In this document: positions 841 through 32,806 of the stretch, piece after piece
Numbering within the stretch: the stretch's first letter is position 1
How the letters are laid out: each line of letters opens with the position of its first letter
NCBI RefSeq assembly: GCF_008973485.1
Contig: NZ_CP031223.1
Span: forward strand, 1,984,001-2,048,000
Source of the DNA: Psychrobacillus glaciei
GTDB taxonomy: Bacteria; Bacillota; Bacilli; Bacillales_A; Planococcaceae
Direction of reading: 5' to 3'
Length of the DNA stretch: 64,000 nucleotides
The notes under the pieces: model-generated
Seen by the model: the letters and a program-made list of their open reading frames with translations, nothing else
What the model was told of the DNA's origin: nothing
Databases searched by the model: none
Position numbers and translations under genes: made by a program

Positions 841-880
841 CTTTAACTAACGGATGCTTTACTTCAATAAGGAATATGGT
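841..880. repeat. Palindromic spacer half-unit, copy 1
   Basis: The sequence AACTAACGGATGCTTTACTT is a left half-unit of the spacer family that separates the accessory genes. The arms AACTAA and TTTACTT flank a short GATGC-like loop. It lies in the 180-bp gap between the VanZ-like gene and the next broken gene. Confidence 0.6.
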
Positions 881-931
881 TTTTTATGGTAAAATAATTA
901 TCGAGGGGTTCTTTTTTAAAAAAAATTTATT

Positions 932-1419
932 ATGTATAAGTATTTTATTTTTTTTTGTTTACAGTAGTAGGTTATAGTAATCAGGAGAAGGCTGTAACAG
1001 GTGAATTCCTTTTGATTAATTTTGGATTCGACTTAAAATCAAATGAAACTTATTATCTTGTTGTTCCAATTGAATGGACAGGCGAATCGGTTGTGACAAT
1101 TAAGTCCCTAGAGTTGATTAAAAGAGATGAAAAGCCTATTACATACGGGGAAGATGGTATAAAGTATGAAATTTTCGGTGCTGACCCATTAAAGCAGTCT
1201 GGGATACATGGTGAATCAGATGTAGGGGAGTTAAAAGACATCAACAATTTAGAAATCAATGGTGAAGGAAAAATTGTGTTCAAATTTTCAATGAGAGATG
1301 TAAAAAAAGATAGTGAACGAAGGGTTAAAATCAGCTTCAGCGTTAATGGAGAAGAATGTGAAAAAATTGTTGAATGGAACACTCTAGAACAATTAACTAC
1401 GGATAACAAATATAAATAG
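932..1419 (+). pseudogene. Small exported protein with frameshift in its signal-peptide T-tract
   Basis: An ATG at 932 opens a hydrophobic stretch (MYKYFIFF) that runs into nine Ts at 948 to 956 and then stops at once. The 150-codon body, beginning VVGYSNQEKAVTG, lies one frame away. One additional T would join a normal signal peptide to the body. The body looks like a secreted beta-rich domain (alternating hydrophobic residues, no recognised motif) and I do not know its function. Either the gene is inactive, it switches by slippage in the T-tract, or the homopolymer length is a sequence error. Without the signal peptide only a weak TTG at 955 is available and it has no ribosome site. Confidence 0.55.
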
Positions 1420-1437
1420 TTACATATATACATTGTT

Positions 1438-1510
1438 TCATGTAACGGGTGCCTTTCTACAATAAGCGGAGACTATTTTTCACTAACGTCGCAAGTTATT
1501 GATAGAAAAT
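1438..1510. repeat. Palindromic spacer, copy 2 (both halves)
   Basis: GTAACGGGTGCCTTTCTAC, then a purine-rich stretch and a T-run, then CACTAACGTCGCAAGTTATT. This is a complete left half, middle and right half of the spacer family, between two broken exported-protein genes. Confidence 0.6.
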
Positions 1511-1565
1511 CATGTCCTTGTTTCGAGTAAAGTTAATGTTCCAAAAAGTAAAGGAGGTATAAAAA

Positions 1566-2121
1566 ATGAAATTGAGTAAGTATATTATTAACTTTTTCCT
1601 TTTTAATAATTACTCTCTCTGCTTGTTCATCAACTGAAAACTCAATATCCAATGAAATCGAAGGGATAGAATTAAAATTAACCATCAATAAACAAAAAAT
1701 ATCGTCTGATGATGAAGTTAATGCTAAAGTAACGTTAACAAACCACAATGATACACAGAGAGAAATTTTTGTACCAATTCCAAAAGATATAGATGAAGGG
1801 ATATCAGCCGTAATGGTTGAACGAAAAGGTGAAATGTTATCGCAATTACTAAATCCAAATAATAATCAAGATATACCAAATATCAAAGGGCGTTCATTCT
1901 ATGATTTTGTTCTGGTGGAATTAGGGGCTTATGAAACAATTGAACAAGAGTTTCGTTGGAATAAGAAGTTATTGAACCAAGAAAGTATGGAATTTGAAGA
2001 AGCGGATAGCGGGGAATATCTACTAAGCACCTTTATTATTTTAGACGAATTAAATAATCAAAAAGAATATTACGAACCTGAAAAGCAATCGATTTCTAAA
2101 ATAAACTTTACAGTTAAATAA
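1566..2121 (+). pseudogene. Lipoprotein with frameshift inside its signal peptide
   Basis: An ATG at 1566 follows AAAGGAGGTATAAAAA, an excellent ribosome site. The first nine codons (MKLSKYIIN) are in one frame. The rest of the signal peptide, with the lipobox LSAC followed by SSTEN, is in the next frame, which stays open to 2121. Removing one T from the T5 run at 1593 to 1597 would restore a standard lipoprotein of about 184 residues. The mature part has an immunoglobulin-like pattern (KVTLTNHNDTQREIFVPI), similar in style to the BsuPI family, but this is not certain. It is one of several exported-protein genes here broken near the N-terminus. Confidence 0.65.
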
Positions 2122-2148
2122 CCGTTGTTTTCTCTTTTTCTTATTGTG

Positions 2149-2190
2149 CTAACGGAGTGCTTTAGTAGAACAAGGCTGGTCAGTTCAATA
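2149..2190. repeat. Palindromic spacer half-unit, copy 3
   Basis: GCTAACGGAGTGCTTTAGT followed by AGAACAAGGCTGGTCAG. The left half-unit lies directly after the lipoprotein pseudogene. The open frame across it (2125 to 2346) looks accidental. The rest of the gap up to 2390 shows nothing recognisable. Confidence 0.55.
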
Positions 2191-2394
2191 AGTGTCGTTG
2201 GGGGTTGGAGATTTTTCTTAATTCATAGAGGTCTAGGGGCGTTGATCCAACAAGGGATTAATGCTCTTTTTGATTGTTTAATTATTAATCTTGCTGAGAT
2301 GATAATTTTAATTTCAATTCTTGAAATTAATTGGTTAAAAATGTGACGATTTCATTTTAAATTGCGTCTAAGTATATAGAAAGAGGTGAACAGT

Positions 2395-2916
2395 TTGGAA
2401 CAAGAAGAAGTACATAAATGGTTTGATGAATATGGAGAATCCATTTTAACTTATACACTGTTAATGGTGAGAGATTATCAACAAGCAGAGGATTTAACAC
2501 AAGAGACTTTTATAAAAGCTTATAAAAATCAACACAAATTTGCACAGAAATCTACTGTGAAAACGTGGTTATTCTCTATCGCTTTTAATGTGACAAAAGA
2601 CTATTATCGGAAAAAACACCCGTTACACCATTATTTGGGTTTAACAATGGCAGAGAAAGACTACAAACCAATACCTGAACAAATCGTAGCGATGAATGAT
2701 CAAACTGAACAATTATATAGGTCGCTTCAACAATTAAAGCCTACTTATAGGCATGTAATCATTTTACGGATGTTAAAAGAATTCTCTACAGCAGAATCAG
2801 CCCTCGTTCTAAACTGGTCTGAAAGTAAAGTGAAAATGACTTTAAAAAGAGGCTTAGCGGAACTTAAAAATGAATTGATAAAAGGAGGGTTTACCAATGA
2901 AATCTTTCTTAGATGA
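2395..2916 (+). CDS. ECF-type RNA polymerase sigma factor
   Basis: A 173-residue protein of the extracytoplasmic-function sigma-70 group. Region 2 is recognisable by the sequence around QAEDLTQETFIKAY and TVKTWLFSIAFNVTKDYYR. Region 4 carries LKPTYRHVIILRMLKEFS and the helix-turn-helix stretch LNWSESKVKMTLKRGL. I chose TTG 2395 because AGAGGTG lies about five bases upstream; the in-frame GTG 2386 overlaps that ribosome site. The gene overlaps the next one by 20 bp, so it is translated together with a membrane-anchored partner that probably acts as its anti-sigma factor, as is usual for ECF pairs. The signal and target promoters cannot be read from the sequence. Confidence 0.85.
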   Translation: MEQEEVHKWFDEYGESILTYTLLMVRDYQQAEDLTQETFIKAYKNQHKFAQKSTVKTWLFSIAFNVTKDYYRKKHPLHHYLGLTMAEKDYKPIPEQIVAMNDQTEQLYRSLQQLKPTYRHVIILRMLKEFSTAESALVLNWSESKVKMTLKRGLAELKNELIKGGFTNEIFLR

Positions 2917-3943
2917 ACAATTTAGTAATTTAGAACAAGAACTAAAAATGAAAGACGAATCCAAAAGTATATTAAGAAATAAAATTTTGCAGAATACACA
3001 AATAAGCAAAAAACGTAATATGAGAACTTATACTTGGATTATAACAGCGATATGTACCTTTGTTTTAATAATGTCGCCTTTCTATTCATCAACGATGGCT
3101 AGTCTTGTTGCAAAAATTGTACCAATATCTATTACTCCTAGTTTTTCTGATAGACAACATAATTCCGATTTAACGTCTCAACTGGTTAAATTACTCGAAG
3201 AGGAAGGATATAAGGTGAATTCAATTGGGATAATACCATCAACAAATACAATTGAAATTTCACTCATTTTGAAAGATTCTACATTGAAAAAGGCAACAGA
3301 TGACCTTGAACCAAAGATAAAGAATTATCTATATGAAAATGGCTATGACAAATATGAAATAAAAGTTTCAGAAGCAACTGAAGCACCTCCAAACAAGCCG
3401 TGGGATGAAAGTCTTTTTAACAAGGTACGTGAGATTGTGAAGGAAGTATTTGCATCGTATGGATATGCTAAAGAAGCGGATTTTGAATTAGCGGGCCTTA
3501 CAAAATCATGGTTTTCAAACACTGTCACAATTGATATGCCTGACCATATTCAAGAGTCAACGGAAATTATTGCGGATATCGAAAAAGAAATAGAATCTCA
3601 GAATTTAGATGTAAAAGATATTAAAGTAAATACTTTCAACTTTGAACATCGTCGACAAGATAATCGTTGGGCATATATTGCATCTGATATATATGATGCG
3701 ATGGCAGGAAAATCGATTTATCAGCTGACGGGGGTATCTTATAAAGTGAAGAAAGGGCATTCCTATGTTTGGATTAAAACAGATTTGGATGAATTACCTT
3801 CTGAAGAAATAGTTCGAGAAATTGAATTGGCTATACAAGAATATTTTGCTTTACCAGAAACGAAAGAGCAAATTCAAAATGACAATTATACGATTCAATT
3901 ATTGTTAAAGAATGAAAAACCATTTGTTAAAATAACAAACTAA
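2897..3943 (+). CDS. Membrane-anchored probable anti-sigma partner, DUF4030-like
   Basis: A 348-residue protein with a roughly 50-residue cytoplasmic N-terminus, one membrane segment (TYTWIITAICTFVLIMS, about residues 44 to 60) and a long extracellular part. The extracellular part contains repeated alpha/beta units (for example VNSIGIIPSTNTIEISLIL and VKDIKVNTFNFEHRRQDNRW) resembling the DUF4030 family of Bacillus. The start at 2897 overlaps the sigma gene and has AAGGAGGG upstream. Position and topology suggest that the N-terminal tail holds the sigma factor at the membrane. That is inference from gene order; I see no zinc-binding ZAS motif. Confidence 0.65.
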   Translation: MKSFLDEQFSNLEQELKMKDESKSILRNKILQNTQISKKRNMRTYTWIITAICTFVLIMSPFYSSTMASLVAKIVPISITPSFSDRQHNSDLTSQLVKLLEEEGYKVNSIGIIPSTNTIEISLILKDSTLKKATDDLEPKIKNYLYENGYDKYEIKVSEATEAPPNKPWDESLFNKVREIVKEVFASYGYAKEADFELAGLTKSWFSNTVTIDMPDHIQESTEIIADIEKEIESQNLDVKDIKVNTFNFEHRRQDNRWAYIASDIYDAMAGKSIYQLTGVSYKVKKGHSYVWIKTDLDELPSEEIVREIELAIQEYFALPETKEQIQNDNYTIQLLLKNEKPFVKITN

Positions 3944-5958: not shown

Positions 5959-6816
5959 TCAAACAACTTTATTAAGGGCTAAGATTTTATAAGCGACCGG
6001 ACTTAGATAACCCAGTTTACTGTGCGACCGGATATTATTGTACCAATTGACATAATCGAAAAGTTCAAGAGACAGCTGTTCAAGGGTAGGGTAGTGCGAT
6101 CCGTTGATGAGTTCTGTTTTTAAAATCTTAAAAGTCGCTTCTGCCACCGCATTATCATAAGGATTTCCTTTTTGACTTAGAGATCGCTTAATCTTAAATG
6201 TACTTAATAATTCATCGATACCAACATTTTTAAATTCAGATCCACGATCTGTATGGAACATTTTTACGTTTTGCAGAGGATATCTAACAGACTTAAAGGC
6301 ACGCTGAACTAGAGCTGCGTCCTTTTGTTCTCCGACACTATACCCGACGATTTCTCTGTTATATAAATCGATTAAAAAACAAATATAATTCCAGTTTCCT
6401 CCTACTCTCACATACGTTAAGTCACTTACTAACACAGACATCTCTTTATCCACGTTAAATGCTCGATTTAATACATTTCGAACTGATTCTTCATTTGGAG
6501 GGGTAGACATTGGTTTATAGGATGGTTTTGTATATTTCGATTGAATTCCTAGTTCGTCCATCAATCGACCAATACGTCGTCTAGAGACTGTTAAACCAGC
6601 TTTTTTTAAGGCATCTTTTATTTTTCTGGTTCCATATACTTTACGATTCTCTTCGAAAATCACTACTATTTTATCTTTTAATTTTTGCTCTTCAGCTAGC
6701 TTTTCTTGTTCTTTTTGAATGGCTATTCCCGTGTCATGATAAAAAGTACTACGAGCTATTTTTAGGACTTTACACATTGCTAATACAGAATATTTGTGAC
6801 GATTTTCTTGAATCAC
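5959..6816 (-). CDS. IS3-family transposase OrfB (catalytic part)
   Basis: A 285-residue DDE integrase-type transposase. It opens with the HTH_21-like region (FEENRKVYGTRKIKDALKK, then RRRIGRLMDELG). The rve domain shows the first Asp in VLVSDLTYVRVGGNW, the second in MFHTDRGSEF and the catalytic Glu in NAVAEATFKILKTEL. It starts at GTG 6816, directly behind OrfA in the -1 frame. In this family OrfA and OrfB are normally joined by programmed -1 slippage; the candidate site at the end of OrfA (ACGAAAATAG) has only four As. The full-length fusion is probably the active enzyme. Confidence 0.9.
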   Translation of the reverse strand: MIQENRHKYSVLAMCKVLKIARSTFYHDTGIAIQKEQEKLAEEQKLKDKIVVIFEENRKVYGTRKIKDALKKAGLTVSRRRIGRLMDELGIQSKYTKPSYKPMSTPPNEESVRNVLNRAFNVDKEMSVLVSDLTYVRVGGNWNYICFLIDLYNREIVGYSVGEQKDAALVQRAFKSVRYPLQNVKMFHTDRGSEFKNVGIDELLSTFKIKRSLSQKGNPYDNAVAEATFKILKTELINGSHYPTLEQLSLELFDYVNWYNNIRSHSKLGYLSPVAYKILALNKVV

Positions 6817-6818
6817 AT

Positions 6819-7100
6819 CTATTTTCGTCCCATGATCAGCGCGGCTTGCTTTAAAATGTCGACTTCCATTTCGAGTTGCTTATTTCTCTTACGCAAGTCA
6901 ATCAGTTCTTGCTCAACCGAAGATCGGTTGTCTTTCTCTTTAAAGGAGCCTGACTGTTTGAATTGAGTAATCCATCTGTCTAAAGCAGACGCGGTTAATT
7001 CATATTCTCGGGCAATATCTTGACGGCTTTTTCCATTTTCATATAGGGCCACCACTTGTTTTTTAAATTCTGTAGAAAACGTTCTTCTTTTACTGGACAT
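6819..7100 (-). CDS. IS3-family transposase OrfA (DNA-binding part)
   Basis: A 93-residue protein with the HTH_Tnp_1 domain (TFSTEFKKQVVALYENGKS, then DIAREYELTASALDRWI), followed by a leucine-zipper-like coiled coil (ELIDLRKRNKQLEMEVDILK). It starts at ATG 7100 behind AGAAGGAGAATCTACT. It binds the element ends and regulates or fuses to OrfB. Length and domain order are usual for IS150-like elements. Confidence 0.9.
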   Translation of the reverse strand: MSSKRRTFSTEFKKQVVALYENGKSRQDIAREYELTASALDRWITQFKQSGSFKEKDNRSSVEQELIDLRKRNKQLEMEVDILKQAALIMGRK

Positions 7101-7257: not shown

Positions 7258-7314
7258 TTAACAAATGGTGTGCTTTACTTCAATAAGGAGTAAAGCCTTT
7301 TTACTAACGTAGCA
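7258..7314. repeat. Palindromic spacer, copy cut by intron A
   Basis: AATGGTGTGCTTTACTTC leads into a terminator-like hairpin (GCTTTACT pairing with AGTAAAGC, then a T-run), followed by ACTAACGTAGCA where group II intron A begins. The second half of the palindrome (GTTTAGTACAAG) resumes at 8169 after the intron. Confidence 0.7.
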
Positions 7315-8168
7315 GCGCGACAAGTTTTGTTATAAGCACTAATGTGTGAAAAAACAAGGGATTTCTTCGGAAATCCTAACTTTATAACCGAGGATAGGAA
7401 TGATAAAACCACGTATTTTGAAACTATCCCATTGATACTCCTGCATGCGTCATAATAGACAGATTATGGGGTCTGAAGCTCAGGTAAAGTCGGCAGAACA
7501 AAGGCTGAAGCCACTCCTCACGGAAAAGGTATGCCAATGGATATGTCGGATGGCTGAAAAACTAAATATGGTGAGAATTTTCTTACGGAAAAGAACAGAC
7601 GAACTTCCGAATGTACGGGTCTAAAGTTAGAGCATAAGGAAACTTGTGTACCATCCAACGATGGGGTGAGTGACGTGGAGTAAAAATTGCTGCTCTGAAA
7701 CACGTTATACCGAACAATGGCGGTATCCAGCTCATAGGCTTACAGGAAGCACCTAAGTTTAGAAAAAGATAGCTAGGTTATAAGGTACTTGGAAAATAAG
7801 GAACGTTGGATCAAGGGCTGTCACCCGAAACGGTTGCTATAAGCTAAATGGCGAAATGCATTTGTCCTTATGAGGGTAGGGGTACGACCAGTGAAACCTC
7901 TGTAATGGAGGTGGAGGAACAGCCCCAAGTCTAGCGATAGGTAATAATTATTTTTCAACTGTGCATTGCACCGGTCTGGTAAGAACGTGGGAACATCATT
8001 TCATATAAGAATGATGCCACAGTGCAAGCTCTTCGATGAAGAGTAACTTGAAACTTATAATTAATAATACCATCGTTAGATGGAACGCGGAATGCTTGGA
8101 AACTGGCACGTTCCGTGCGGAGTAGGGGAAAAGCCAGAGATAACTTCAAACGTTTACCTATTACTAAC
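7315..8168 (+). mobile_element. Group II intron A, ORF-less ribozyme copy
   Basis: This is an 854-bp copy of the HNH-type intron whose full version lies at 12725 to 15369. Both ends are near identical to that copy: the start GCGCGACAAGTTTTG and the 3' part with the domain V hairpin (GGAACGCGGAATGCTTGG to CACGTTCC) and domain VI. The whole reverse-transcriptase frame is missing. The domain IV tip is now the short perfect hairpin CTCTTC-GAT-GAAGAG near 8029 to 8043. It probably keeps a foldable ribozyme core and may depend on the maturase of copy B. The exon junction is the loop of the palindromic spacer. Confidence 0.75.
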
Positions 8169-8274
8169 GTTTAGTACAAGAGTGTTGTTTAACTTGTGTT
8201 CAATAATCGGGATATTTAGAAGAAAATGGAAGTTTAAATAGTGAGCAATTGAAATACATAATAAGGGGGACATT

Positions 8275-8901
8275 ATGAAATTTTATCTTTCATCTTTTAA
8301 AATAGGAAATGAAGAACGGAAACTAATCGAATTAACGGAAAATGGGAATAAAAAAGTTGCATATATCAATAATGCGTTAGACTTTGCGACTGATTTAGAA
8401 AGAAAAAATAAAAGTGATGTTGCAGACGTAAGTGAACTGCAAAGAATAGGTTTCACAGTGGATATTTTAGACTTGAAAATGTACTTCGATAACCACGAAG
8501 GGTTGAAAGATAAGCTTGATCTATACGATATTATTTGGGTAAGAGGTGGCAATACTTTTGTTCTTGCACAAGCAATGAGATTAAGCGGTTTCGATGAAAT
8601 CATTAAAAAATATTATAGAGAAAAAAGAGATATTCTATATGGGGGATATAGTGCAGGTGGTTGTATCCTTGGACCAACTTTAAAAGGCATACACTTAGCA
8701 GACGAACCTGAGCAGAAACCTTATGGAAATGAACAACAAGCTATATGGGAAGGTTTATGCATTTTGGATTATGTAATTGCCCCACATTATAAATCAGATT
8801 ACAAAGAATCTAACGATATGGACCGAGCAATTGAATTTATGATCGAGAATAAAATTCTATTTAAAGCATTGAGGGATGGAGAAGTAATCATAATTGAATA
8901 G
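8275..8901 (+). CDS. Peptidase E-like serine hydrolase (S51 family)
   Basis: A 208-residue class I glutamine-amidotransferase-like protein of peptidase family S51. Signature elements are the strand-turn WVRGGNTF (residues 88 to 95), the nucleophile elbow GGYSAGGC with Ser126, and His171 in IAPHYKSD. Members cleave Asp-X dipeptides or related small peptides in the cytoplasm. It starts at ATG 8275 behind AAGGGGGACATT. It is a single gene flanked by palindromic spacers, so its neighbours give no functional hint. Confidence 0.8.
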   Translation: MKFYLSSFKIGNEERKLIELTENGNKKVAYINNALDFATDLERKNKSDVADVSELQRIGFTVDILDLKMYFDNHEGLKDKLDLYDIIWVRGGNTFVLAQAMRLSGFDEIIKKYYREKRDILYGGYSAGGCILGPTLKGIHLADEPEQKPYGNEQQAIWEGLCILDYVIAPHYKSDYKESNDMDRAIEFMIENKILFKALRDGEVIIIE

Positions 8902-9069: not shown

Positions 9070-9714
9070 ATGGAGAAAGTTCTAAATAAGATAGTCAATT
9101 TGGTTAACAGTAAGAATGAAAAAATCATCATTGGAATTTCGGGTCCTGGTGCATCTGGAAAGACAACGTTTGCCCATAATCTTATAAAACTTCTGGGAGA
9201 TGAAGATGTGAATTATATCAATACGGACCCATATATCATCGGCTCTCATCTTAGGAAGTACACTTTAATTAACTATGAATATAAGAATCAACACCATCAA
9301 GATAAAATGACAGCCTGTCATCCTGCTGCTCATAATATATATGCTTTAGAGAGAGATGTACAAATGGTGAGAGATGCTTTAGATTTTTATACAATAGGCA
9401 CAAATTATACAGAGAGTAAGTTAATTTCTTCACAAAACAAAGTAAATATTATAGAAGGTATGACCGTTGCCTTTACAGATCCCAATTTGTATGATCTAAA
9501 AGTTTACTTACATACAGATGGGGAAACCGAGCTGATGAGAAGGGGTATACGTGATGTTTCTGAAAGAGGAACAGATATAAATTATTTAAGAAAATCTCAT
9601 GAAGAGCGTAGAATTCAATATGATTTATTTATGCATCCCTACTATCAAAATTTCGATATAGTTTTAAAAAATTCAAATGAAAGCTATATACTTGAAAAAA
9701 GTTGTTTTAATTAA
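9070..9714 (+). CDS. P-loop kinase related to uridine kinase
   Basis: A 214-residue cytoplasmic protein with a Walker A loop GPGASGKT at residues 25 to 32 in the context IIIGISGPGASGKTTF. It also has the aspartate-rich NTDPYIIG region and KVNIIEGMTVAF, the pattern of the uridine kinase/phosphoribulokinase-like family. The substrate is unknown. ATG 9070 is preceded by TGGAGGAAAAA. It stands alone between spacers, as a cassette-like single gene. Confidence 0.75.
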   Translation: MEKVLNKIVNLVNSKNEKIIIGISGPGASGKTTFAHNLIKLLGDEDVNYINTDPYIIGSHLRKYTLINYEYKNQHHQDKMTACHPAAHNIYALERDVQMVRDALDFYTIGTNYTESKLISSQNKVNIIEGMTVAFTDPNLYDLKVYLHTDGETELMRRGIRDVSERGTDINYLRKSHEERRIQYDLFMHPYYQNFDIVLKNSNESYILEKSCFN

Positions 9715-9732
9715 TTTGTTTTGTGAAATAGT

Positions 9733-9815
9733 GTACTTAAACTAACGGAGACTTTACTTCAATAAAGAGTAGAGCCTTTTTTACTAACGCAGCAGTTTGG
9801 TTGAACAAAGAGGTT
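9733..9815. repeat. Palindromic spacer, complete copy
   Basis: ACTTAAACTAACGGAGACTT, then a terminator-like hairpin (CTTTACTTCAATAAAGAG with a following T-run), then ACTAACGCAGCAGTTTGGTT and GAACAAAGAGG. It is one of the clearest copies: left half, terminator, right half. Confidence 0.75.
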
Positions 9816-9888
9816 TCTTTAGTAAGAACATAGAAATAGTTATTAAACAGATGATATTAGCATTGCTATTGTTTAGGAGGATAAAGGA

Positions 9889-10080: not shown

Positions 10081-10130
10081 ATTTGGTTTACTGGAAATTA
10101 GAGCGTACAAATTTGTGAAAAAATGCACTT

Positions 10131-12439: not shown

Positions 12440-12464
12440 TTGAGATTGTGAAACATTGTACTTA

Positions 12465-22122: not shown

Positions 22123-22263
22123 GCATGTCTCCATTGCAGTCAATGTTAGACAACCAGAACAAAATGATTGGGAAAGGTCACATTTACCTTGGGAATAATA
22201 AAAAAAAATTCCTAATGCCTGATAGCTATAATAATCACTTTTTCTTCCTCAACTAACGTGTGT

Positions 22264-23878: not shown

Positions 23879-24667
23879 ATGCTTTATCTAAATCCAGATG
23901 ATTTTTTGTTGAAACCAGCATTAGCCACCATTCATTGTGAACCGAATTGGAAGTGGAAGAAAAGAGATACCCCTTTGCCTAACTTTGATTTATTTTATGT
24001 TTGGAGTGGTGAGGGTACTGTGTTTTTAAACAAAAAGCCACATCATGTAGGAAAAGGTCATTGTTTTTTGTTCAGACCAGGTGATGAAACAGAAGCAACA
24101 CATAACCCGCAAGATCCCCTTGTATTAACTTATATTCATTTTGATATAGCTGAAACACCCCGATTGATTCCATCCGCACATCGAATTTTTGACAATACGA
24201 TTGGCTTTGAATCACTGTTAACTCAATACATTCGTTTGTTTTTAGTCAAAACATATGGAGCGGAAATTGAGGGGAAGTTAATCTTGAAGCAATTAATTAT
24301 TCATTTATTAAGAGAAGAACAAGAAAAGGAAAAAGAGCTGGGTAATACAAGCAATATCTTATTGGAAGCGATTTTAGAAATAGCTAATTATATCCAGCAA
24401 CACCCTGGGGAACCACATACGATTGAAAGTTTATCTGCCCGTGCAAATTTTTCCCCGAGGTATTTTTCCAAAAAGTTTAAACAAATTATCGGGCATACAG
24501 TTAAATCGTATATTGTCTATTCTCGCATAAAACGTGCAGAACATTTACTACATATTAGCGGGATGACAGTAACGGAAACCGCATATGCCCTTGGCTATAA
24601 TGATTTGCACTTTTTTAGTAGACAATTTAAGCAATATACCGGTAAAAACCCTTCTGAAGTAAGGTGA
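23879..24667 (+). CDS. AraC-family transcriptional regulator
   Basis: A 262-residue regulator. The N-terminal half is a cupin-type ligand domain (NFDLFYVWSGEGTVFLNK, then GKGHCFLFRPGDETEAT). The C-terminal 100 residues carry two helix-turn-helix units (HTIESLSARANFSPRYFSK and MTVTETAYALGYNDLHFFSR), ending QYTGKNPSEVR. ATG 23879 follows TAGGAGGGTACTGA. A terminator and a 183-bp gap separate it from the amino-acid cluster that follows on the same strand, so that cluster is its likely target. The ligand is unknown. Confidence 0.85.
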   Translation: MLYLNPDDFLLKPALATIHCEPNWKWKKRDTPLPNFDLFYVWSGEGTVFLNKKPHHVGKGHCFLFRPGDETEATHNPQDPLVLTYIHFDIAETPRLIPSAHRIFDNTIGFESLLTQYIRLFLVKTYGAEIEGKLILKQLIIHLLREEQEKEKELGNTSNILLEAILEIANYIQQHPGEPHTIESLSARANFSPRYFSKKFKQIIGHTVKSYIVYSRIKRAEHLLHISGMTVTETAYALGYNDLHFFSRQFKQYTGKNPSEVR

Positions 24668-24689
24668 AAAATTTCATATTTATTATAAC

Positions 24690-24733
24690 AGGTTGCTATG
24701 GGTTCTTTATCAAATCCCGTAGCAACTTTTTTT
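24690..24733 (+). terminator. Rho-independent terminator of the AraC gene
   Basis: GTTGCTATGGG pairs with CCCGTAGCAAC across an A/T-rich loop and is followed by eight Ts. Confidence 0.85.
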
Positions 24734-24745
24734 TGGAGTAAAAAA

Positions 24746-24760
24746 GTGCAAATATTGCAC
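24746..24760. promoter_or_regulatory. Small palindrome upstream of the DAP cluster
   Basis: GTGCAA-ATA-TTGCAC is a perfect 6-bp inverted repeat about 90 bp before the aminotransferase start. Position makes it a candidate operator for the neighbouring AraC protein or another regulator, but AraC sites are usually direct repeats, so this is only a suggestion. Confidence 0.35.
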
Positions 24761-24850
24761 CAATAAATCTAAATAAATTTGCTTCTCAAAGTATTAATAT
24801 GAAAACTAAGAAAGAAAAATAAACAAAGAAAAAAATGCGGGGGAATCAGT

Positions 24851-26092
24851 ATGGTAATAATGGATTATATACAACATTTATTTGCAGATCGAATAGGTGG
24901 TGCACAATTTGGCATGAAGGATGAAATTTATAAATTTGAAAAAATAAAAAGAGCAAAGAGGGAAGTATTGCAAAGAAATCCTGGGAAGACATTAATCGAT
25001 CTTGGTGTCGGTGAACCGGATGATATGGCACATGATATGATCGTTAGAAAATTAGCAGAAGAAGCAAAAAAACCAGAAAATCGTTTTTATGCTGATAACG
25101 GAATACGAGAATTTAAGCAAGCTGCAGCGACTTATATGAAGGCAGTATTTGGAGTAGATGATCTTGATCCTGAAGCAGAGATCAATCACGTTATTGGTTC
25201 AAAATCAGCATTGGCCATGATTCCAACAGCATTTATCAATCCTGGTGATATAACGATAATGCCATCACCAAATTATCCAATTTTAGGTGCACATACGAAA
25301 TATCTAGGTGGGGAAGTCGTACATTTACCCCTTCTGGAAGAAAATTCATTTCTTCCAGAACTGGATTCATTGTCTGCTAGTGTATTGAAAAAGGCTAAAT
25401 TACTCTATTTAAACTATCCAAACAATCCAACAGGTGCTGTAGCGAATCGAGAATTTTTCGATGAGGTAGTACGTTTCGCTAATAAACATGAGCTAATTGT
25501 TATCCATGATGCCGCCTATGCTGCACTTGTATTTGATGGTGAAAAACCGCTCAGTTTCTTATCAGTTCCAGGGGCGAAAGAAGTTGGCATAGAGCTGCAT
25601 ACTTTATCCAAATCTTTCAATATGACAGGGTGGCGCATCGGTTTTATCGCAGGTAACTCCAAACTTGTTTCTGCAATTGCGACAGTGAAAGATAATTATG
25701 ATTCTGGTCAATTTATTCCGATTCAAAAAGCTGCGTCCTATGCTTTATCACAACCTGACATAACGAAACAAATAGCTGAGAAATATTCAAGACGCCATGA
25801 TCTTTTATTGAACATTTTGAGGGAATGTGGATTTGATGCAAAAAAACCAAAAGGGTCTTTTTTCTTATATGCAAAGATTCCAATAGCAGTAGAAAAAGGT
25901 CCAACATTTCATTCAGCAGAAGAATTTAGCCAATATTTAATAAGTAAGCATTCAATTTCAACTGTTCCATGGGATGATGCCGGCCCATATGTACGATTTT
26001 CAGTGACCTTTCAGGCAGATGGATGGGAGGAGGAACTGCTAATCTTAGATGATATAAGAACAAGGCTGTGTACTTCCAAATTTATCTTTTAG
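24851..26092 (+). CDS. dapL: LL-diaminopimelate aminotransferase-like PLP enzyme
   Basis: A 413-residue fold-type I aminotransferase. It starts with a DapL-like N-terminus (YIQHLFADRIGGAQFGMKDE) and contains IDLGVGEPDD, SPNYPILGAHTKYLGG, NNPTG at 191 to 195, Asp220 and Tyr223 for the cofactor, and the Schiff-base Lys254 in TLSKSFNMTGWR. The DapL reaction converts tetrahydrodipicolinate and glutamate to LL-DAP in one step. Coupling to dapF just downstream supports that assignment, though related enzymes act on other amino acids. ATG 24851 follows GCGGGGGAATCAGT. It is the first gene of the four-gene cluster. Confidence 0.75.
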   Translation: MVIMDYIQHLFADRIGGAQFGMKDEIYKFEKIKRAKREVLQRNPGKTLIDLGVGEPDDMAHDMIVRKLAEEAKKPENRFYADNGIREFKQAAATYMKAVFGVDDLDPEAEINHVIGSKSALAMIPTAFINPGDITIMPSPNYPILGAHTKYLGGEVVHLPLLEENSFLPELDSLSASVLKKAKLLYLNYPNNPTGAVANREFFDEVVRFANKHELIVIHDAAYAALVFDGEKPLSFLSVPGAKEVGIELHTLSKSFNMTGWRIGFIAGNSKLVSAIATVKDNYDSGQFIPIQKAASYALSQPDITKQIAEKYSRRHDLLLNILRECGFDAKKPKGSFFLYAKIPIAVEKGPTFHSAEEFSQYLISKHSISTVPWDDAGPYVRFSVTFQADGWEEELLILDDIRTRLCTSKFIF

Positions 26093-26106
26093 AGGGGGAT
26101 GAAGAG

Positions 26107-26988
26107 ATGAACTTTACTAAAATGCATGGATTGGGCAATAATTATGTCATTTTTAATCAATTGGACGATCCGAATAATGTACTGGAAGAGCAGATGTATC
26201 CAGAACTTTCAAGAAGAGTTTCCAATGTGAATTTTGGAATTGGCTCCGATGGTATTATTCTCATTTGCCCTTCGCAGATGGCTGATTTTAAAATGAGAAT
26301 TTTTAATGAAGATGGTTCTGAGGCTAAAAATTGCGGAAATGGCCTGCGCTGTGTTGCAAAGTTTTTAGTTGATTCTGCGTATGCAACGGAACCTCGCTTT
26401 ACGATTGAAACATTGGGTGGTGTGGTCAGCGTTGAGGTAGAGGTGGAATTGGATAAAAAGCAATCTATTCAATACGTTAACGTGGATATGGGTGAACCAA
26501 AACTATTGAAAGGAATGATTCCTATGGAAGGTGATCCATTCATGCCCGCAATGAACGAACCCCATACCTTTGGAGAAGATAAGTATCATCTGAGCTGCGT
26601 CTCGATGGGCAATCCGCATGCGATCATCTTTGTGGATGAGGTGAATGCCGTTCCGTTAGAGAAAATAGGCCCTGTCATAGAACATGACAGCCTATTCCCA
26701 GAACGGGTAAACGTAGGAATAGTTCAAATTAAAGGGCGTCAGGAGATTGATTACCGAGTGTGGGAAAGAGGATCAGGTCTAACAATGGCTTGTGGTACAG
26801 GTGCTTGCGCTGCAGTTGTTGCAGCTACAATGAATCAATTGCTTGATCGAAATGAGGCGGTAACTGTGCATCTTCCTGGAGGAGATTTGACAGTAACTTG
26901 GGATGAACAAGGTCATGTTTGGAAAAGAGGTGAAGCTTCTTATATTTGCCATGGTGAATTAGATTTTCAATATTCGTTTTCTGCTTAA
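26107..26988 (+). CDS. dapF: Diaminopimelate epimerase
   Basis: A 293-residue enzyme converting LL-DAP to meso-DAP for peptidoglycan and lysine. Both catalytic cysteines are present: Cys76 in AKNCGNGLRC and Cys229 in TMACGTGACAA. The N-terminus MNFTKMHGLGNNYV is typical. ATG 26107 lies 14 bp after the aminotransferase stop, behind AGAGGGGGATGAAG; the longer open frame upstream overlaps the preceding gene and is not used. Its pairing with a DapL-like gene forms a short route to meso-DAP. Confidence 0.92.
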   Translation: MNFTKMHGLGNNYVIFNQLDDPNNVLEEQMYPELSRRVSNVNFGIGSDGIILICPSQMADFKMRIFNEDGSEAKNCGNGLRCVAKFLVDSAYATEPRFTIETLGGVVSVEVEVELDKKQSIQYVNVDMGEPKLLKGMIPMEGDPFMPAMNEPHTFGEDKYHLSCVSMGNPHAIIFVDEVNAVPLEKIGPVIEHDSLFPERVNVGIVQIKGRQEIDYRVWERGSGLTMACGTGACAAVVAATMNQLLDRNEAVTVHLPGGDLTVTWDEQGHVWKRGEASYICHGELDFQYSFSA

Positions 26989-27024
26989 AAAAATATTAAA
27001 AAACACCGAGGAGTGTGGAAGAGT

Positions 27025-28350
27025 ATGAACAGAGAAAGCATACTAAAAATGGTAAAAGAACAAAATGTGCGGTACATTCGGTTACAATTTACGGATTTAT
27101 TTGGGACGATAAAAAATGTCGAAATTCCAGCCAGTCAGTTAACGAAAGCTTTAGACAATAAAATGATGTTCGATGGCTCATCTATTGAGGGCTTTGTGCG
27201 TATTGAAGAATCGGATATGTTATTATATCCTGACCTCGATACGTTCGTTATCTTTCCTTGGACGGCAGAAAAAGGAAAGGTAGCCCGATTCATCTGTGAT
27301 ATATATCATCCTGATGGAACTCCATTTGATGGAGATCCTCGTCTAAATTTAAAAAGAGTGTTAAAAGATATGGAAGAGCTAGGGTTTACCAATTTCAACC
27401 TTGGACCTGAGCCCGAATTTTTCTTGTTCAAACTGGATGACAAAGGTGAACCAACACTCGAATTGAATGATAAAGGCGGTTATTTCGATCTTGCGCCTAC
27501 CGATCTAGGGGAAAATTGTAGACGTGATATTGTATTGGAATTAGAAGAAATGGGTTTTGAAATTGAGGCATCCCACCATGAGGTTGCTCCAGGTCAACAC
27601 GAAATAGACTTTAAATATCAAGATGCCATAAGAGCTTGCGATGACATTCAAACCTTTAAACTCGTAGTCAAAACAATTGCCCGTAAACACGGGTTGCTGG
27701 CAACGTTTATGCCAAAGCCATTGTTCGGTATAAATGGATCAGGCATGCACTGTAACTTAAGCTTATTTAAAGGAGGAAAGAATACTTTTTATGATCCAAA
27801 TGGGGTGTTGGAATTAAGTGATACAGCAAGAAGCTTTTTGGCAGGAATATTAAAACATGCACCGAGTTTCACAGCTGTTACAAATCCTACTGTTAATTCT
27901 TATAAAAGGTTAGTTCCGGGATATGAGGCACCGTGTTATGTAGCATGGTCGGCAAGAAACAGAAGCCCGCTTATTCGTATTCCAGCTTCACGTGGCTTGA
28001 GTACTCGTGTAGAAGTTCGTAGTGTTGACCCTGCTGCAAATCCTTATCTAGCAATGGCTGTCCTACTAGCTGCGGGATTAGATGGGATAAAAAATAATGC
28101 AACGGCTCCAGAACCAGTAGACCGAAATATTTATGCTATGTCGAAAGAGCAACGTAAGGAATATGGCATTATTGATCTGCCTTCTACGTTGACACAAGCT
28201 CTCGAATTGTTAAAGACAAATGAAGTGATCACGAATGCTTTAGGCAGACATTTGTTTGAACATTTTGTAGAAGCAAAAGAAATCGAATGGGATATGTTTA
28301 GAACGACTGTACATCCTTGGGAACGTGAGCAATATATGAGACAGTATTAA
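27025..28350 (+). CDS. glnA: Glutamine synthetase type I
   Basis: A 441-residue GSI enzyme joining ammonia to glutamate. Signatures are [29 protein letters not shown], the [10 protein letters not shown] metal region, [21 protein letters not shown] and the C-terminal [15 protein letters not shown]. The length fits the short Gram-positive GSI-alpha form. I chose ATG 27025; AGGAG lies eleven bases upstream and the in-frame GTG 27013 sits inside that ribosome site. No glnR gene is beside it, unlike the usual glnRA operon, so it is probably a second, pathway-specific synthetase supplying glutamine for the amidotransferase that follows. Confidence 0.88.
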
Positions 28351-28397
28351 GGGAAATCACATTTTAAGGAAAATCCTAAAAGAAAGAGTGATGTCGA

Positions 28398-30248
28398 GTG
28401 TGTGGAATAGTAGGTTGGGTAGATTGGCGTAATGATTTGACACGACATGTATCCGTAATGGAAAAAATGGCAGAAACCATGTCTAAGCGAGGTCCAGATG
28501 CTTTAAATGTATGGAGTTCACAGCAAATTTCATTCGGACATACACGTCTCACCGTTGTTGATCCTATTGGTGGTACTCAGCCAATGGAAAAGGAAAAAAA
28601 CTGGTGGGCTTATCGGATTGTATATAATGGAGAGCTTTATAATACGGAAGATATTCGGAAGGAATTATTGAAAAGAGGGTATTCTTTTCGTTCTTACTCT
28701 GATACGGAAGTGCTACTCACAGCATATATCGAATGGGGAGAAGCATGTGTTAAGCATTTAAATGGAATTTTTGCCTTTGCTATTTGGGATGAATGCAAAG
28801 AACAGGTTTATATCGCAAGAGATCGTCTAGGTGTGAAACCTCTTTTTTATCATAAAGAAAATGGATCGCTTTTATTTGGTTCAGAGATCAAAGCAATTCT
28901 GGCTCACCCAAAGATAAAGGCTGAGGTAGATCGGGAAGGGCTCAAAGAAATATTCAGCTTAGGTCCATCTCGAACTCCCGGTCATGGTGTATTTAGAGGC
29001 ATACACGAACTTCGCCCAGCACATGCACTTATCTTTAAAAGAAACGGGTTTAAACAATGGCGTTATTGGAATGTAGATAGTCATAAACACCACCATTCAC
29101 TTGATGAAACAGTAGAACAAGTTTCTTTTCTTGTAAAAGATGCCATCGAACGTCAGTTAGTTGCCGATGTACCTGTTTGTACCTTTTTGTCAGGTGGAGT
29201 TGATTCGAGTGCCATTAGTGCCATTGCTGCTGATTATTTTATAAAGCATGGACGGGGACAGCTTCACACATATTCTATTGATTATGAACAAAATAGTCAA
29301 TATTTTAAAGCAAATTCTTTTCAGCCAGATGAAGATGCATCTTGGATTATAAAAATGGAGCAATATTTAAAAACAAATCATCATGCAACCGTTATGGATA
29401 ATGAGAAATTAGTAGAATTTCTGGATAAATCCGTATTGATGAGAGATTTACCTGGTATGGCTGATGTAGACGCATCCCTATTATGGTTTTGTGAACAAAT
29501 TAAACAGGATTATACCGTTGCTTTATCAGGAGAATGTGCGGATGAAATATTCGGCGGCTATCCATGGTTTTATCGAGACGACATTTTACATGTGAATGGA
29601 TTTCCCTGGATAAGATCACTAGAGCAAAGACAGCAGCTATTACTTCCTCATTGGCAAAAGAAGCTCCATTTAAACGAATATGTAATGGATAGGTACAATG
29701 AAACGATTGCTGAAGCTCCACCATTAGAAGGGGAAACATCCGTTGAAGCACGACGTCGGGAAATGTTTTATTTAAATATGATTTGGTTTATGCCAACATT
29801 ATTGGAACGAAAAGATCGAATGAGCATGGGTGCAGGCTTAGAAGTACGTGTCCCATTTGCTGATCATCGGCTTGTTGAATATGCATGGAACATCCCTTGG
29901 GAGATGAAAATGCTAAATGGTCGAGAGAAGGGAATATTGCGAAAGGCGTTAGAAGGAGTTCTTCCGAATGATGTTCTTTATCGTAAAAAGAGCCCATATC
30001 CGAAAACCCATCATCCCGAATATTTGAAACTAGTAAAGACGAAGTTAAAAAACATCCTCGACAACCAATCATCCCCAATATTAGAAATCATGTCAAAGCA
30101 AAAAGTTCAAGATATCATCGATTCAGATGGCTCTTCGTTCAAAAATCCTTGGTTTGGCCAGCTTATGACTGGCCCACAACTTATCGCTCATATCTCTCAA
30201 ATTAACACGTGGCTCGAACGATACAATATTAACATTATAGACAACTAA
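28398..30248 (+). CDS. asnB: Glutamine-dependent asparagine synthetase-type amidotransferase
   Basis: A 616-residue class II amidotransferase. Cys2 after the GTG start at 28398 is the glutaminase nucleophile (MCGIVGWVDW); RGPDA at 31 to 35 and NGELYN at 78 to 83 bind glutamine. The synthetase domain has the ATP-pyrophosphatase loop SGGVDSS at 265 to 271 and ECADEIFGGYPWF later. Canonical members make asparagine. In B. subtilis, AsnB also amidates meso-DAP in peptidoglycan, which would suit the dapL/dapF/glnA neighbours. 616 residues is close to AsnO-type length. It is the last gene of the cluster. Confidence 0.85.
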   Translation: MCGIVGWVDWRNDLTRHVSVMEKMAETMSKRGPDALNVWSSQQISFGHTRLTVVDPIGGTQPMEKEKNWWAYRIVYNGELYNTEDIRKELLKRGYSFRSYSDTEVLLTAYIEWGEACVKHLNGIFAFAIWDECKEQVYIARDRLGVKPLFYHKENGSLLFGSEIKAILAHPKIKAEVDREGLKEIFSLGPSRTPGHGVFRGIHELRPAHALIFKRNGFKQWRYWNVDSHKHHHSLDETVEQVSFLVKDAIERQLVADVPVCTFLSGGVDSSAISAIAADYFIKHGRGQLHTYSIDYEQNSQYFKANSFQPDEDASWIIKMEQYLKTNHHATVMDNEKLVEFLDKSVLMRDLPGMADVDASLLWFCEQIKQDYTVALSGECADEIFGGYPWFYRDDILHVNGFPWIRSLEQRQQLLLPHWQKKLHLNEYVMDRYNETIAEAPPLEGETSVEARRREMFYLNMIWFMPTLLERKDRMSMGAGLEVRVPFADHRLVEYAWNIPWEMKMLNGREKGILRKALEGVLPNDVLYRKKSPYPKTHHPEYLKLVKTKLKNILDNQSSPILEIMSKQKVQDIIDSDGSSFKNPWFGQLMTGPQLIAHISQINTWLERYNINIIDN

Positions 30249-31250: not shown

Positions 31251-31398
31251 TAAAAAAATGCTTAAAATCTAATAAACTGCATAACAAAAGAGATACCGTA
31301 AAATTATGATGACATCTGCCTTACATATAATGTTTTTTATAATAAGTGTCTCGTAATTGGATATTTATGTTAATATATGTATTAGATTGTGAAGGTTT

Positions 31399-31432
31399 AC
31401 ACTTAAACTAATCCCGCAGTTTAGTTGTAGAA
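31399..31432. repeat. Palindromic spacer right half-unit
   Basis: ACACTTAAACTAATCCCGC followed by AGTTTAGTTGTAG, directly upstream of the next broken exported-protein gene. Confidence 0.6.
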
Positions 31433-31446
31433 AGGGAGAGAAAAAA

Positions 31447-31942
31447 GTGAAAAAAATACTGAAATACATAATAATCGGCATGGTTTCTTTTTTTTTTGAT
31501 TTTTTTCGGATTTTCCAACTCATTGAGATGGGCTAAGCAAGGAGAGTTTTTAAAATACGATAATGGTGTGACAATTGAAGTTTATAATTCAAGTAAACAA
31601 GTAATAACGGATTTAAACTTCTATTTTTCGTTTGATGGTAATCAAGTATATCAGGATTTAGGTACTATCAATCAATTAGAACCCGGTGAAACCACTAGTC
31701 GTTATAGTCATAAAATAAAAGACACAGGTAATGATAGAAGTTTATACTTACATTATCCAATTAACAAAACTGAGGCAGAAGTTGAGAGTCTAGCTTATTT
31801 ACCGTCTTATAAACCAAGTAAGATTGTTGTTATTTTAGAAATAACCGGAACTGATAATAAGGAGAAACTTTTATTTAGGGTAAAAGGGTATGAAGATGTT
31901 TTTGGCAAATATGAATTTGATTTGACTTCCGTTAGAGAGTGA
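31447..31942 (+). pseudogene. Exported protein with frameshift in its signal-peptide T-tract
   Basis: GTG 31447, behind AAAGGGAGAG, starts a signal peptide (KKILKYIIIGMVSFFF) that runs into ten Ts at 31488 to 31497. The continuation FFGFSNSLRWAKQGEF lies in the next frame and is open to 31942. Losing one T would give a 164-residue exported protein whose mature part has a beta-sandwich pattern (TIEVYNSSKQVITDLNFYFS). This is the same kind of lesion as at 932 and 1566: a small secreted protein, a T homopolymer, a one-base shift. Confidence 0.65.
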
Positions 31943-31970
31943 TTGCTTAGAGGGTACCAAGGAGTGATTA

Positions 31971-32107
31971 TTCAACTAACTGGTGCTTTAGCATAACAAG
32001 ACCATCATCTCGATGGTCTTGTTATTTATACAAAACATCAAGTAAGTCTCAGAAATCCTTTGTGAAATGTTACACTTAAACTAACGTCGCAGTTTAGTTG
32101 AAGAAGG
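31971..32107. repeat. Palindromic spacer, complete copy with strong terminator
   Basis: TTCAACTAACTGGTGCTTTAG, terminator hairpin AACAAGACCATC pairing with GATGGTCTTGTT, then CTTAAACTAACGTCGC and AGTTTAGTTGAAGAAGG. It is the clearest example of the left half, terminator and right half arrangement. Confidence 0.8.
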
Positions 32108-32197
32108 ATATTTTCTGTTTAAGCGAATTAGAATTTCAAACAACCCCTTACACTAATACAGGTATTGAAAATAATACAAACATAGGAGGTATGAGAT

Positions 32198-32635
32198 ATG
32201 AAAATCAATAGAATAGATCATGTGAGTATAAACGTAAATAATCTTTCAGAGGCTAAAGCTTTTTTTCTTGATTTAGGACTTCAAGTGCAAGCGGAATGGG
32301 AATTGGATGGAGAACAGTTGGACAGAATAGTTGGGCTTAATAATGTTAAAACGGCATGTGTAGGATTGGGGATGCCAGATGGTGAGGTATGGATAGAGCT
32401 AGTTAAATTTTATACGCCGTCAGATGAAAAAGATATTCAACAACCTTTTGCAAATACGCTGGGTATACGACATATTTGCTTTGCTGTTGAAGATATTGAA
32501 GCTATTGTTGCAAGATTAAAAAAGAATGGCACGGAAATCTTTAGTGAGATACAGCAATATGAAGAAAGTTATAAGTTATGCTACGTTCGTGGTCCAGAGG
32601 GAATTATTTTAGAGTTGGCGGAGAAAATCAGATAA
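32198..32635 (+). CDS. VOC-family protein (glyoxalase/dioxygenase fold)
   Basis: A 145-residue protein with two beta-alpha-beta-beta-beta units: INRIDHVSINVNNLSEAKAF with His8 at the usual metal position, GEVWIELVKF with a glutamate, LGIRHICFAVEDIEAIVA with a second His, and GPEGIILELAEK with a last Glu. These are the four positions that bind metal in glyoxalase I-like enzymes, so it is probably catalytically competent, substrate unknown. ATG 32198 follows AGGAGGTATGAGAT. It is a single gene between palindromic spacers. Confidence 0.85.
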   Translation: MKINRIDHVSINVNNLSEAKAFFLDLGLQVQAEWELDGEQLDRIVGLNNVKTACVGLGMPDGEVWIELVKFYTPSDEKDIQQPFANTLGIRHICFAVEDIEAIVARLKKNGTEIFSEIQQYEESYKLCYVRGPEGIILELAEKIR

Positions 32636-32690
32636 ATATTGAATGGGACTTTAAATGATTTAGTTCTCTAACTTTAAAGATTTCTTCTTA

Positions 32691-32806
32691 AACTATCGGG
32701 TGATTTAGTTAAACAAGACCATTTCGATGGTCTATTTTTTTTAACCAAAACATCAGGTAGATCACAGAAATCCATTGTGAAATGTTACACTTAAGCTAAC
32801 GAGGCA
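32691..32806. repeat. Palindromic spacer, copy cut by intron C
   Basis: AACTATCGGGTGATTTAGTT, hairpin AACAAGACCATTTCGATGGT with a T-run, then CTTAAGCTAACGAGGCA, where intron C begins. Confidence 0.7.

Follow-up and report, generated by a model that had tools for sequence, protein, structure and literature searches.

How do unrelated single genes come to stand one behind the other on a single strand, each set off from the next by copies of one palindrome? The question is raised by a stretch of 64,000 nucleotides from Psychrobacillus glaciei, bases 1984001-2048000 of contig 1 in a genome of 4.35 Mb and hereafter called the window, for which a sequence-only reading had proposed that genes separated by a palindromic spacer family behave like gene cassettes. 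Here we argue that the spacers are built from two related site types, L and R, that genes and terminators both behave as modules meeting at these sites, and that the whole is probably a multi-locus gene cassette system served by a dedicated recombinase.

A palindromic site family with a regular grammar

The consensus of the R site is CTAACGnnGCAG(T/G)TTAGTT and that of the L site CTAACGGGTGCTTTAGTT, and both contain long inverted arms, about TTCTTATTGAACTAA and TTAGTTGAANAAG, which enclose a centre measuring 9 bp in R (CGnnGCAG followed by T or G) and 8 bp in L (CGGGTGCT), a 9 bp form of the latter being also met. With weight matrices for L and R seeded from matches within array stretches, 25 sites (14 L and 11 R, of which those at 5910, 17460 and 22844 are weak) are found in the window between 847 and 32712, and five further sites are interrupted by group II introns starting at 7315, 12725, 15919, 22264 and 32807. 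The proposed spacer family is thus real, and its layout on the plus strand holds for all 25 sites; likewise the spacers do stop before the core-like genes, there being no site above threshold from 32712 to 64000, and the diaminopimelate (DAP) cluster at 23879-30248 is free of them, with no site inside.

Across 2.72 Mb, training stretches included, the matrices give 2646 matches before merging of overlaps and 2 on reversed sequence, and the L matches on the minus strand are mostly R sites read in reverse. When one mismatch is allowed, a loose core, CTAACGNNNNNNTTTAGTT, has 112 matches in the whole genome and its reversed pattern 12, and the 100 core matches listed fall, with few single exceptions, into clusters that lie on the plus strand at 0.59 and 1.95-2.02 Mb and on the minus strand from 2.24 Mb on. 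The strict core CTAACGNNGCAGNTTAGTT, looked up in close genomes as the sequence-only reading had advised, is present in 25 of 61 genomes (the host and 60 relatives), whereas the reversed control is found in none; one strict R core lies on the second contig of the host genome.

In the array stretches of six genomes from one genus, counted after overlapping matches had been merged by best score, 732 R and 723 L sites mostly alternate in the order R, gene, L, terminator, R, and 1439 of these 1455 sites are on the majority strand of their stretch, with 16 on the other. Successive pairs are L-R in 545 cases (median 40 bp), R-L in 543 (median 596 bp), R-R in 165 and L-L in 148. The layout first described for the window, a half-unit, usually a terminator hairpin and a second half-unit, is borne out by 467 of the 545 L-R intervals being no longer than 200 bp, and folding supports the hairpin: the median minimum free energy of 466 such intervals is -12.7 kcal/mol vs -6.5 kcal/mol when shuffled, 64% of them lie at least 4 kcal/mol below their own shuffles and 357 carry a T run just upstream of R. 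An open frame is present in 478 of 491 R-L intervals of 150-2500 bp, 13 having none, and in 443 of these 478 it is the array strand that carries the longest one. Furthermore, the sites run with the GC skew, as judged from its sign, in 35 stretches out of 38, and the three exceptions all belong to one genome (G015, contig 1, 2294001-2314000, 3288001-3304000 and 3652001-3660000), where inversions of chromosome segments would explain them.

The hosts of arrays are soil bacteria related to Bacillus and represent several genera of Bacilli, and some arrays are on plasmids. In genome G003, which has 136 R cores in all, the 100 listed among these outline an array region of about 320 kb, with gaps, on the plus strand of contig 1 (837000-1157000) and another on the minus strand (1242000-1320000); this array is larger than the best known chromosomal integrons.

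Short leaders accompany the sites. Before several of them TTGTGAANNNTTACACTTAAACTAAC takes the place of the usual CTTATTGAAC (11279-11303, 21478-21505, 31383-31411 and 32060-32085 in the window), and this second type is found before L sites as well, while a short leader of the form TTGTTTAACTTGTGTTCAACAATCGGGCCATTT follows right after R sites ahead of unrelated genes, in the window at 8185-8215 and on a Sporosarcina plasmid at 1-60 and 650-700 of stretch L191 (such numbers denote sequence stretches, not L sites). Furthermore, a non-coding element, about 230 bp long and with CATTTTCATTCTCTGTGGTGAAGCGC...GCGCTTCATGGATGG at its end, stands directly before L at 10113-10349, 12446-12680 and 18473-18714, with its last part alone at 20937-21010; the last part also occurs in Peribacillus, near 1586 and 6529 of stretch L089. 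An Rfam search gave no match at the positions of this element, which may be a regulatory RNA or else a third type of module.

Module boundaries lie in the palindrome

Array stretches and recombinase loci, leaving out six loci of one genome, were compared with each other, and stretches shared at 85% identity or more over at least 150 bp were collected; dropping sequences without sites, ends within 40 bases of a sequence end and bins with more than 15 hits per 100 bp reduced 2652 shared stretches to 991. Of their 5' ends 154 fall at R and 122 at L, where 19.8 each are expected for randomly placed intervals, and of their 3' ends 212 fall at R and 216 at L, where 19.5 and 20.9 are expected, which is 6 to 11 times above chance; the other ends (715 of 991 at the 5' side and 563 of 991 at the 3' side) lie away from any detected site. 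Both ends in both copies are sites in 100 cases (31 R-R, 23 R-L, 18 L-L, 16 L-R and 12 mixed), and these represent 59 module families at 143 places, with at least 29 pairs within one genome, 14 of them on opposite strands. Orientation relative to the array is kept in all of the 100, none being inverted although the second copy was tested regardless of strand, and among all 991 stretches 18 are inverted.

Where exactly identity is lost can be followed base by base in pairs of at least 90% identity, comprising 74 3' ends and 74 5' ends at R. When the upstream side is shared, identity is 0.81 at position -3, 0.86 at +4, 0.59 at +6, 0.54 at +7, 0.53 at +12 and 0.35 at +19, and when the downstream side is shared the corresponding values are 0.14, 0.65, 0.36, 0.39, 0.70 and 0.82, against a background between unrelated R sites of 0.33, 0.62, 0.39, 0.40, 0.47 and 0.34. 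The switch therefore falls within the centre of the palindrome and outside the arms, and a switch confined in this way is, as far as sequence comparison can tell, the mark of site-specific recombination. L sites switch too (47 and 75 pairs).

Individual copies have the same limits. A 528 bp module found at both 586.5 kb and 3.054 Mb of the host genome shows 98.5% identity between successive R centres, one array has two 418 bp copies that agree at 98% and end in the same way, and pairs of at least 98% identity that end at sites were found between stretches L009 and L020 and within each of L020, L026 and L120. The same gene at 11398-11955 of L010 and at 4923-5481 of L024 (96.6%) stands before two hairpins that are very unlike each other, the difference starting at the L centre. 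Stretches shared between species rarely extend beyond one module: at an identity of at least 88%, R pairs are internal in 19 cases, against 95 and 94 R pairs at the ends.

From the boundaries at both L and R and the switch in the centre we can conclude that genes and terminators act like modules which site-specific recombination puts together. This modifies the sequence-only reading in one respect: genes are indeed bracketed by versions of one palindrome, but the L half is a boundary as well, and gene and terminator look like separate modules rather than one unit. Its cassette interpretation is otherwise strengthened, both by near-identical genes at different places that share sequence to the palindrome centre only and by the dedicated recombinase found in the arrays, and the case that it had named as contrary, a terminator family unrelated to gene movement, does not agree with these two findings.

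Insertions and deletions were counted, like the shared stretches, from 150 bp upwards, a limit longer than the usual L-hairpin-R unit. Out of 99 such indels one has R at all three points (flanks of 122-146 bp, 85-88% identical) and one has L, L and R. Three candidates for differences at a single locus were discarded: that in L107/L108 has neighbours of 98-99% identity but is a deletion within a GNAT gene, the R-R insert of two modules in L081/L083 has an upstream flank that is a 141 bp repeat only, and L060/L092 are too diverged. In gene listings of two Peribacillus frigoritolerans plasmids, the same gene order is kept over a stretch and one gene is present in one record only.

A recombinase between L and R

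As had been noted from the sequence, the window has no intact integrase gene, and no recombinase of the Xer-like array family is found there; the intact recombinase that was to be sought near the array lies 29 kb before the window, on the minus strand of contig 1 at 1954086-1954919. It is one of five recombinase places in the host genome, two of them intact and three broken, and the other intact copy, on the plus strand at 2340688-2341521, differs from it by one residue. The closest relatives (94-96%) are mostly from Psychrobacillus, and also from Sporosarcina, Lysinibacillus, Solibacillus and Paenisporosarcina. By its sequence the protein is a Xer-like recombinase of the tyrosine type and not an integron integrase: it scores 223.3 bits with NF040815 (cut-off 220), 210.2 with the XerD model TIGR02225 (329.6), 203 with the XerC model (335) and 136 with PF00589 (27.1), while with NF040815 a Paenisporosarcina copy reaches 224.2 and a Peribacillus copy 199.8, which is under the cut-off. 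R137, K161, H227, H253 and Y262 are invariant, and R230 nearly so, in 23 proteins down to 63% identity, and we take these six to be the catalytic residues (R, K, HxxR, H, Y).

The recombinase gene is itself placed like a module. By eye it sits between an L and an R half in most of 30 loci, and all six L-R intervals of 954-958 bp in the array stretches of the six genomes contain it, some as broken copies; among 46 relatives a site above background is found on both sides in 24, of which 19 are R/L pairs. The gene is directed opposite to the array in the Psychrobacillus group and the same way as the array in the Peribacillus group.

Recombinase and sites also occur together. With presence called at E<=1e-60, all 17 of the 61 genomes that have the recombinase have the R core, 16 of them at least five times, whereas among the 44 genomes that are without it at least five R cores are found in three, one in five and none in 36. 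Outside the genus of the window the recombinase is present in two of 42 genomes, whose R cores number 70 and 69; of the remaining 40 genomes, 4 have a single core and 36 lack it.

Group II introns and plasmid carriers

All 33 group II introns that were found by their 5' ends, in stretches chosen for arrays or recombinases only, sit in sites, with the left arm of the palindrome just upstream. They are of two types, 17 and 16 in number, and their start points are fixed, directly behind CTAACGnnGCA or at the equivalent place in L, and behind GCAGGT or GTGCTT. Class C introns are described to insert at terminators and at attC (PMC4424553). Outside the array, the window has one more intron (39263-41049), whose Rfam matches are to other types.

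When one L-R unit was used as query, 18 of 72,556 plasmid records matched, five of them over at least 80% of its length and all from Bacilli, and the same query had no match among phage records, in which distant relatives of the recombinase only (33-35%) were found. A Sporosarcina plasmid of 5990 bp carries a complete module of R, ASCH gene, L, hairpin and R together with one more L, and it has an annotated MobV relaxase, yet is typed as non-mobilizable in PLSDB.

Proposed mechanism

We put at roughly 75% the probability that these loci form a multi-locus gene cassette system, in which a dedicated recombinase would act on duplex palindromes to join two alternating types of modules. Every module, be it a gene, a terminator hairpin or the recombinase gene, would begin with the right arm of the palindrome and end with its left arm, and two modules that meet would rebuild a full site of about CTTNTTNAACTAA, a centre of 8 or 9 bp and TTAGTTNAANAAG. 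The centre types would alternate, with R (CGnnGCAG) ahead of genes and L (CGGGTGCT) ahead of terminators. The Xer-like recombinase, carried as an L...R module, would presumably be the enzyme, with the arms as its binding sites and the centre as the place of strand exchange; where two like sites stand in direct repeat, such an exchange would excise or insert modules, the latter probably travelling as circles, and the asymmetric centre would fix their orientation. What speaks for this at the level of sequence is the grammar and uniform strand of the arrays, the boundaries at L and R, the switch in the R centre, the fixed orientation, the recombinase within L...R and its co-occurrence with the sites, as well as the complete module on the small Sporosarcina plasmid; plasmids would presumably spread the modules. 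Since arms, centre and enzyme are all defined, the mechanism is directly testable.

Several observations nonetheless weigh against it. The expectation for randomly placed intervals takes no account of gene edges lying near sites, which is why the finer switch test at base level matters, and in that test positions +6 and +7 of R are half linked to the upstream side (0.59 and 0.54 vs 0.39 and 0.40), as a staggered exchange predicts but as mutation could also cause. At R sites internal to a shared stretch the identities are 0.84 at +6, 0.79 at +7 and 0.84 at +12, so these positions are not merely very mutable, although this control is small, being made of 19 pairs. The L centre is too uniform for placing the cut. 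In Paenisporosarcina HGH0030 a gene present at two places (93%, L064/L065) has R behind one copy and L behind the other, and since these centres are unlike, an exchange of like with like leaves the case unexplained. Furthermore, no clean present/absent pair at one locus was found among the 99 indels of at least 150 bp. As to the enzyme, one or both flanks are not above background at 22 of the 46 recombinase loci, often in diverged groups, as scored with a matrix trained on one genus; R cores are present without the recombinase in three genomes (G002, G005 and G013, with 6, 30 and 8) and, as a single core, in five others, the 30 cores of G005 being possibly arrays that lost their enzyme; and 15 of the 17 genomes with the recombinase are from the genus of the window (15 of 19 there), which are thus not 17 independent cases.

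Alternative explanations

The alternative that survives best, though we consider it unlikely, is a true integron lineage, in which L, hairpin and R would be one folded single-strand attC that is cut at G^TT of its right box by a divergent IntI. The layout indeed equals 1L-2L...2R-1R and the L and R arms are able to pair, but L alone is a boundary too, different hairpins stand behind the same gene (L010/L024 and L019/L020) and R occurs without a detected L, as in the 165 R-R intervals. The outer boxes of attC read RYYYAAC ... GTTRRRY (PMC3053210), and AACTAAC and GTTTAGT each fit six of the seven positions; the sequence-only reading was thus right that the motif does not fit the attC core consensus, but the motif comes nearer to it than was claimed. 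The R switch could lie at GCAG^T, yet +6 and +7 are not fully linked upstream. The agreement of site strand with GC skew in 35 of 38 stretches and the group II introns in sites, reminiscent of class C introns in attC, would likewise suit an integron. The recombinase, however, reaches 88.4 bits where the integron integrase model TIGR02249 requires 265 and 54.5 where NF011946 requires 435, no protein passed the TIGR02249 cut-off in a search of the whole host genome, and judged from these family scores only the extra helix of integron integrases is absent. Furthermore, the recombinase lies inside L...R in several copies and not beside a recognised attI. Integrons and the present arrays do have in common that single-gene modules with a site each are arrayed on one strand, and that genes appear from sequence comparison to move with their site and to have boundaries in it, although boundaries at L are not predicted by integrons. 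The best reading is that the arrays work like those of integrons, yet depart from them in tested defining features such as the integrase and the outer boxes, and that their sites, instead of being attC, belong to a single kind of long-armed palindrome.

More doubtful, in our view improbable, is that a mobile element L-recombinase-R has given rise to the L-hairpin-R units as short copies without autonomy, which insert behind genes and move no gene. The recombinase module is exactly L...R in the six intervals of 954-958 bp and the common unit is L, 40 bp and R, as this explanation would have it, but gene modules appear to move as well, with 31 R-R and 23 R-L vs 16 L-R among the cases bounded by sites on both sides, a count biased by the invisibility of short units below 150 bp. 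Random inserters would moreover hardly be one-stranded and alternate with single short genes, and insertions of L-hairpin-R with matching empty sites were not seen in searches limited to 150 bp or more.

Ordinary dispersed repeats or terminators with breakpoints from homologous recombination or gene edges deserve very little credence, since, even if the hairpins resemble intrinsic terminators and the similarity of gene homologues has to fade at some point of the spacer in any case, identity crosses non-coding DNA up to the arm and switches only in the centre, with -3 and +19 linked to their own side, none of 100 cases is inverted and the sites track one recombinase. Equally hard to credit are dif-like modules as on Acinetobacter plasmids, moved by the housekeeping XerC/XerD, for although there too genes lie between palindromic Xer-like sites and the recombinase here is of Xer type, the arrays have a separate recombinase that tracks their sites, the consensus exceeds the reported dif length of 28 bp (PMC6449649) and has arms that are near-identical inverted repeats, and tens to more than 100 R cores are present per chromosome.

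The array in the window

All sites and modules of the window given here are on the plus strand, with genes assigned by Pfam and sites by matrix score. The array begins with L sites at 847-866 (centre GGATGC, score 43.6) and 2149-2169 (47.6), and between L sites, at 2386-3943, lie genes for a sigma-70 family factor and a DUF4030 protein. After a further L site at 7262-7282 (38.2), the left half of an R site at 7303-7314 is cut by the intron that starts at 7315 (RF02004 at 7375-7560 and RF00029 at 8083-8167), beyond which follow gene modules for a peptidase S51 (8275-8901) and a kinase of the PRK/uridine kinase family (9070-9714). L and R with a terminator-like hairpin between them then occur three times, at 9742-9804 (L 9742-9761, R 9784-9804), 10323-10393 (L 10323-10342, R 10373-10393) and 11220-11319 (L 11220-11239, R 11299-11319), a DUF4184 module at 10462-11223 standing between the last two. 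An R site at 12018-12038 (28.2) precedes an Imm32-like module (12089-12439), and an L site at 12654-12673 (29.1) is followed by the left half of an R site at 12712-12724 that is cut by the intron starting at 12725 (RF02004 at 12785-12970 and RF00029 at 15284-15368), which carries an open frame at 13372-15228.

Beyond this intron a VOC/glyoxalase module (15445-15882) leads to the left part of an L site at 15904-15918, cut by an intron of the second type that starts at 15919 (RF02005 at 15955-16191 and RF00029 at 16510-16601). R sites follow at 17384-17404 (42.3) and 17505-17525 (21.3), the latter preceded by the weak L at 17460-17480 (15.0), then a DUF1871 module (17576-17866), an L site at 17900-17920 (35.5), a DUF4181 module (18030-18476), the combination of L (18688-18707), terminator-like hairpin and R (18748-18768) at 18688-18768, and a GNAT acetyltransferase module whose listed frame, 18718-19335, begins upstream of R. 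After an L site at 20984-21003 (36.7) and an R site at 21502-21522 (46.8) comes a DUF3885 module (21667-22122), and the left part of a site at 22252-22263 is cut by an intron fragment starting at 22264 (RF02004 at 22328-22511). Further on come an R site at 31408-31428 (24.9) and a module without Pfam match (31496-31942), a 90.5% copy of which lies at 9697-10277 of stretch L023 (3209697-3210277 of contig 1), where it begins at R and ends at L; L (31976-31995), terminator-like hairpin and R (32081-32101) at 31976-32101, a second VOC/glyoxalase module (32198-32635) and the last L site above threshold (32693-32712, 34.8) follow, and at 32795-32806 the left half of an R site is cut by the intron starting at 32807, recognised by its 5' end.

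The DAP cluster at 23879-30248 is an operon flanked within the array by a weak R site at 22844 and by the R site at 31408, and it has genes for an AraC regulator, an aminotransferase-like protein, DAP epimerase and glutamine synthetase-like and asparagine synthase-like proteins, of which the regulator and the epimerase alone were checked against Pfam. Two minus-strand regions inside the array, 5959-7100 and 19508-20476, resemble insertion-sequence transposases by look only. Outside the array, overlapping repeats in a 12 to 18 bp register (TTGTAACTGAGC-like) are seen at 38466-38881.

Comparison with known systems

Cassette arrays are known chiefly from integrons, and here up to hundreds of kilobases of little-studied genes are arrayed in Bacilli. 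It is an even bet, in our estimate, that the arrays represent a third cassette platform in Bacilli that is independent of integrons, in which one enzyme working on duplex sites would shuffle genes together with their punctuation and need no attI, no IntI and no folded attC. If duplex palindromes are indeed what the recombinase works on, shuffling of cassettes is able to evolve without the folded single strand on which integrons rely, and the system, having a compact recombinase and a short defined site, could serve as a tool; it would also open a large pool of small genes to annotation. No earlier description of it was found among the openly licensed papers listed, and a review describes integrons as particularly prevalent in Proteobacteria, with Firmicutes as one name among the phyla it lists (PMC8618304).

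With chromosomal integrons the system shares long one-strand arrays of single genes, palindromic sites, a tyrosine recombinase and group II introns in the sites, but its enzyme is Xer-like and below the integrase cut-off, its several recombinase copies are modules themselves, terminators seem separable from genes and each outer box has one mismatch to the consensus; no attI platform was recognised, attI having no sequence model and not having been searched for. In the dif (pdif) modules of Acinetobacter plasmids genes are likewise bracketed by two Xer-type sites, and modules are found on plasmids, whereas, going by the published description of those modules, the present system differs in its dedicated recombinase, its far larger chromosomal arrays, its two alternating centres and the length and sequence of its sites. 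The group IIC-attC introns are similar in that group II introns occupy fixed positions of a recombination palindrome, but here the target is the L/R palindrome, the intron class being assigned from Rfam matches only. Finally, the XerA/XerD family (NF040815 and TIGR02225) provides the best family matches and the conserved catalytic residues, and it is the location of the recombinase inside mobile L...R modules that sets the present enzyme apart from it.

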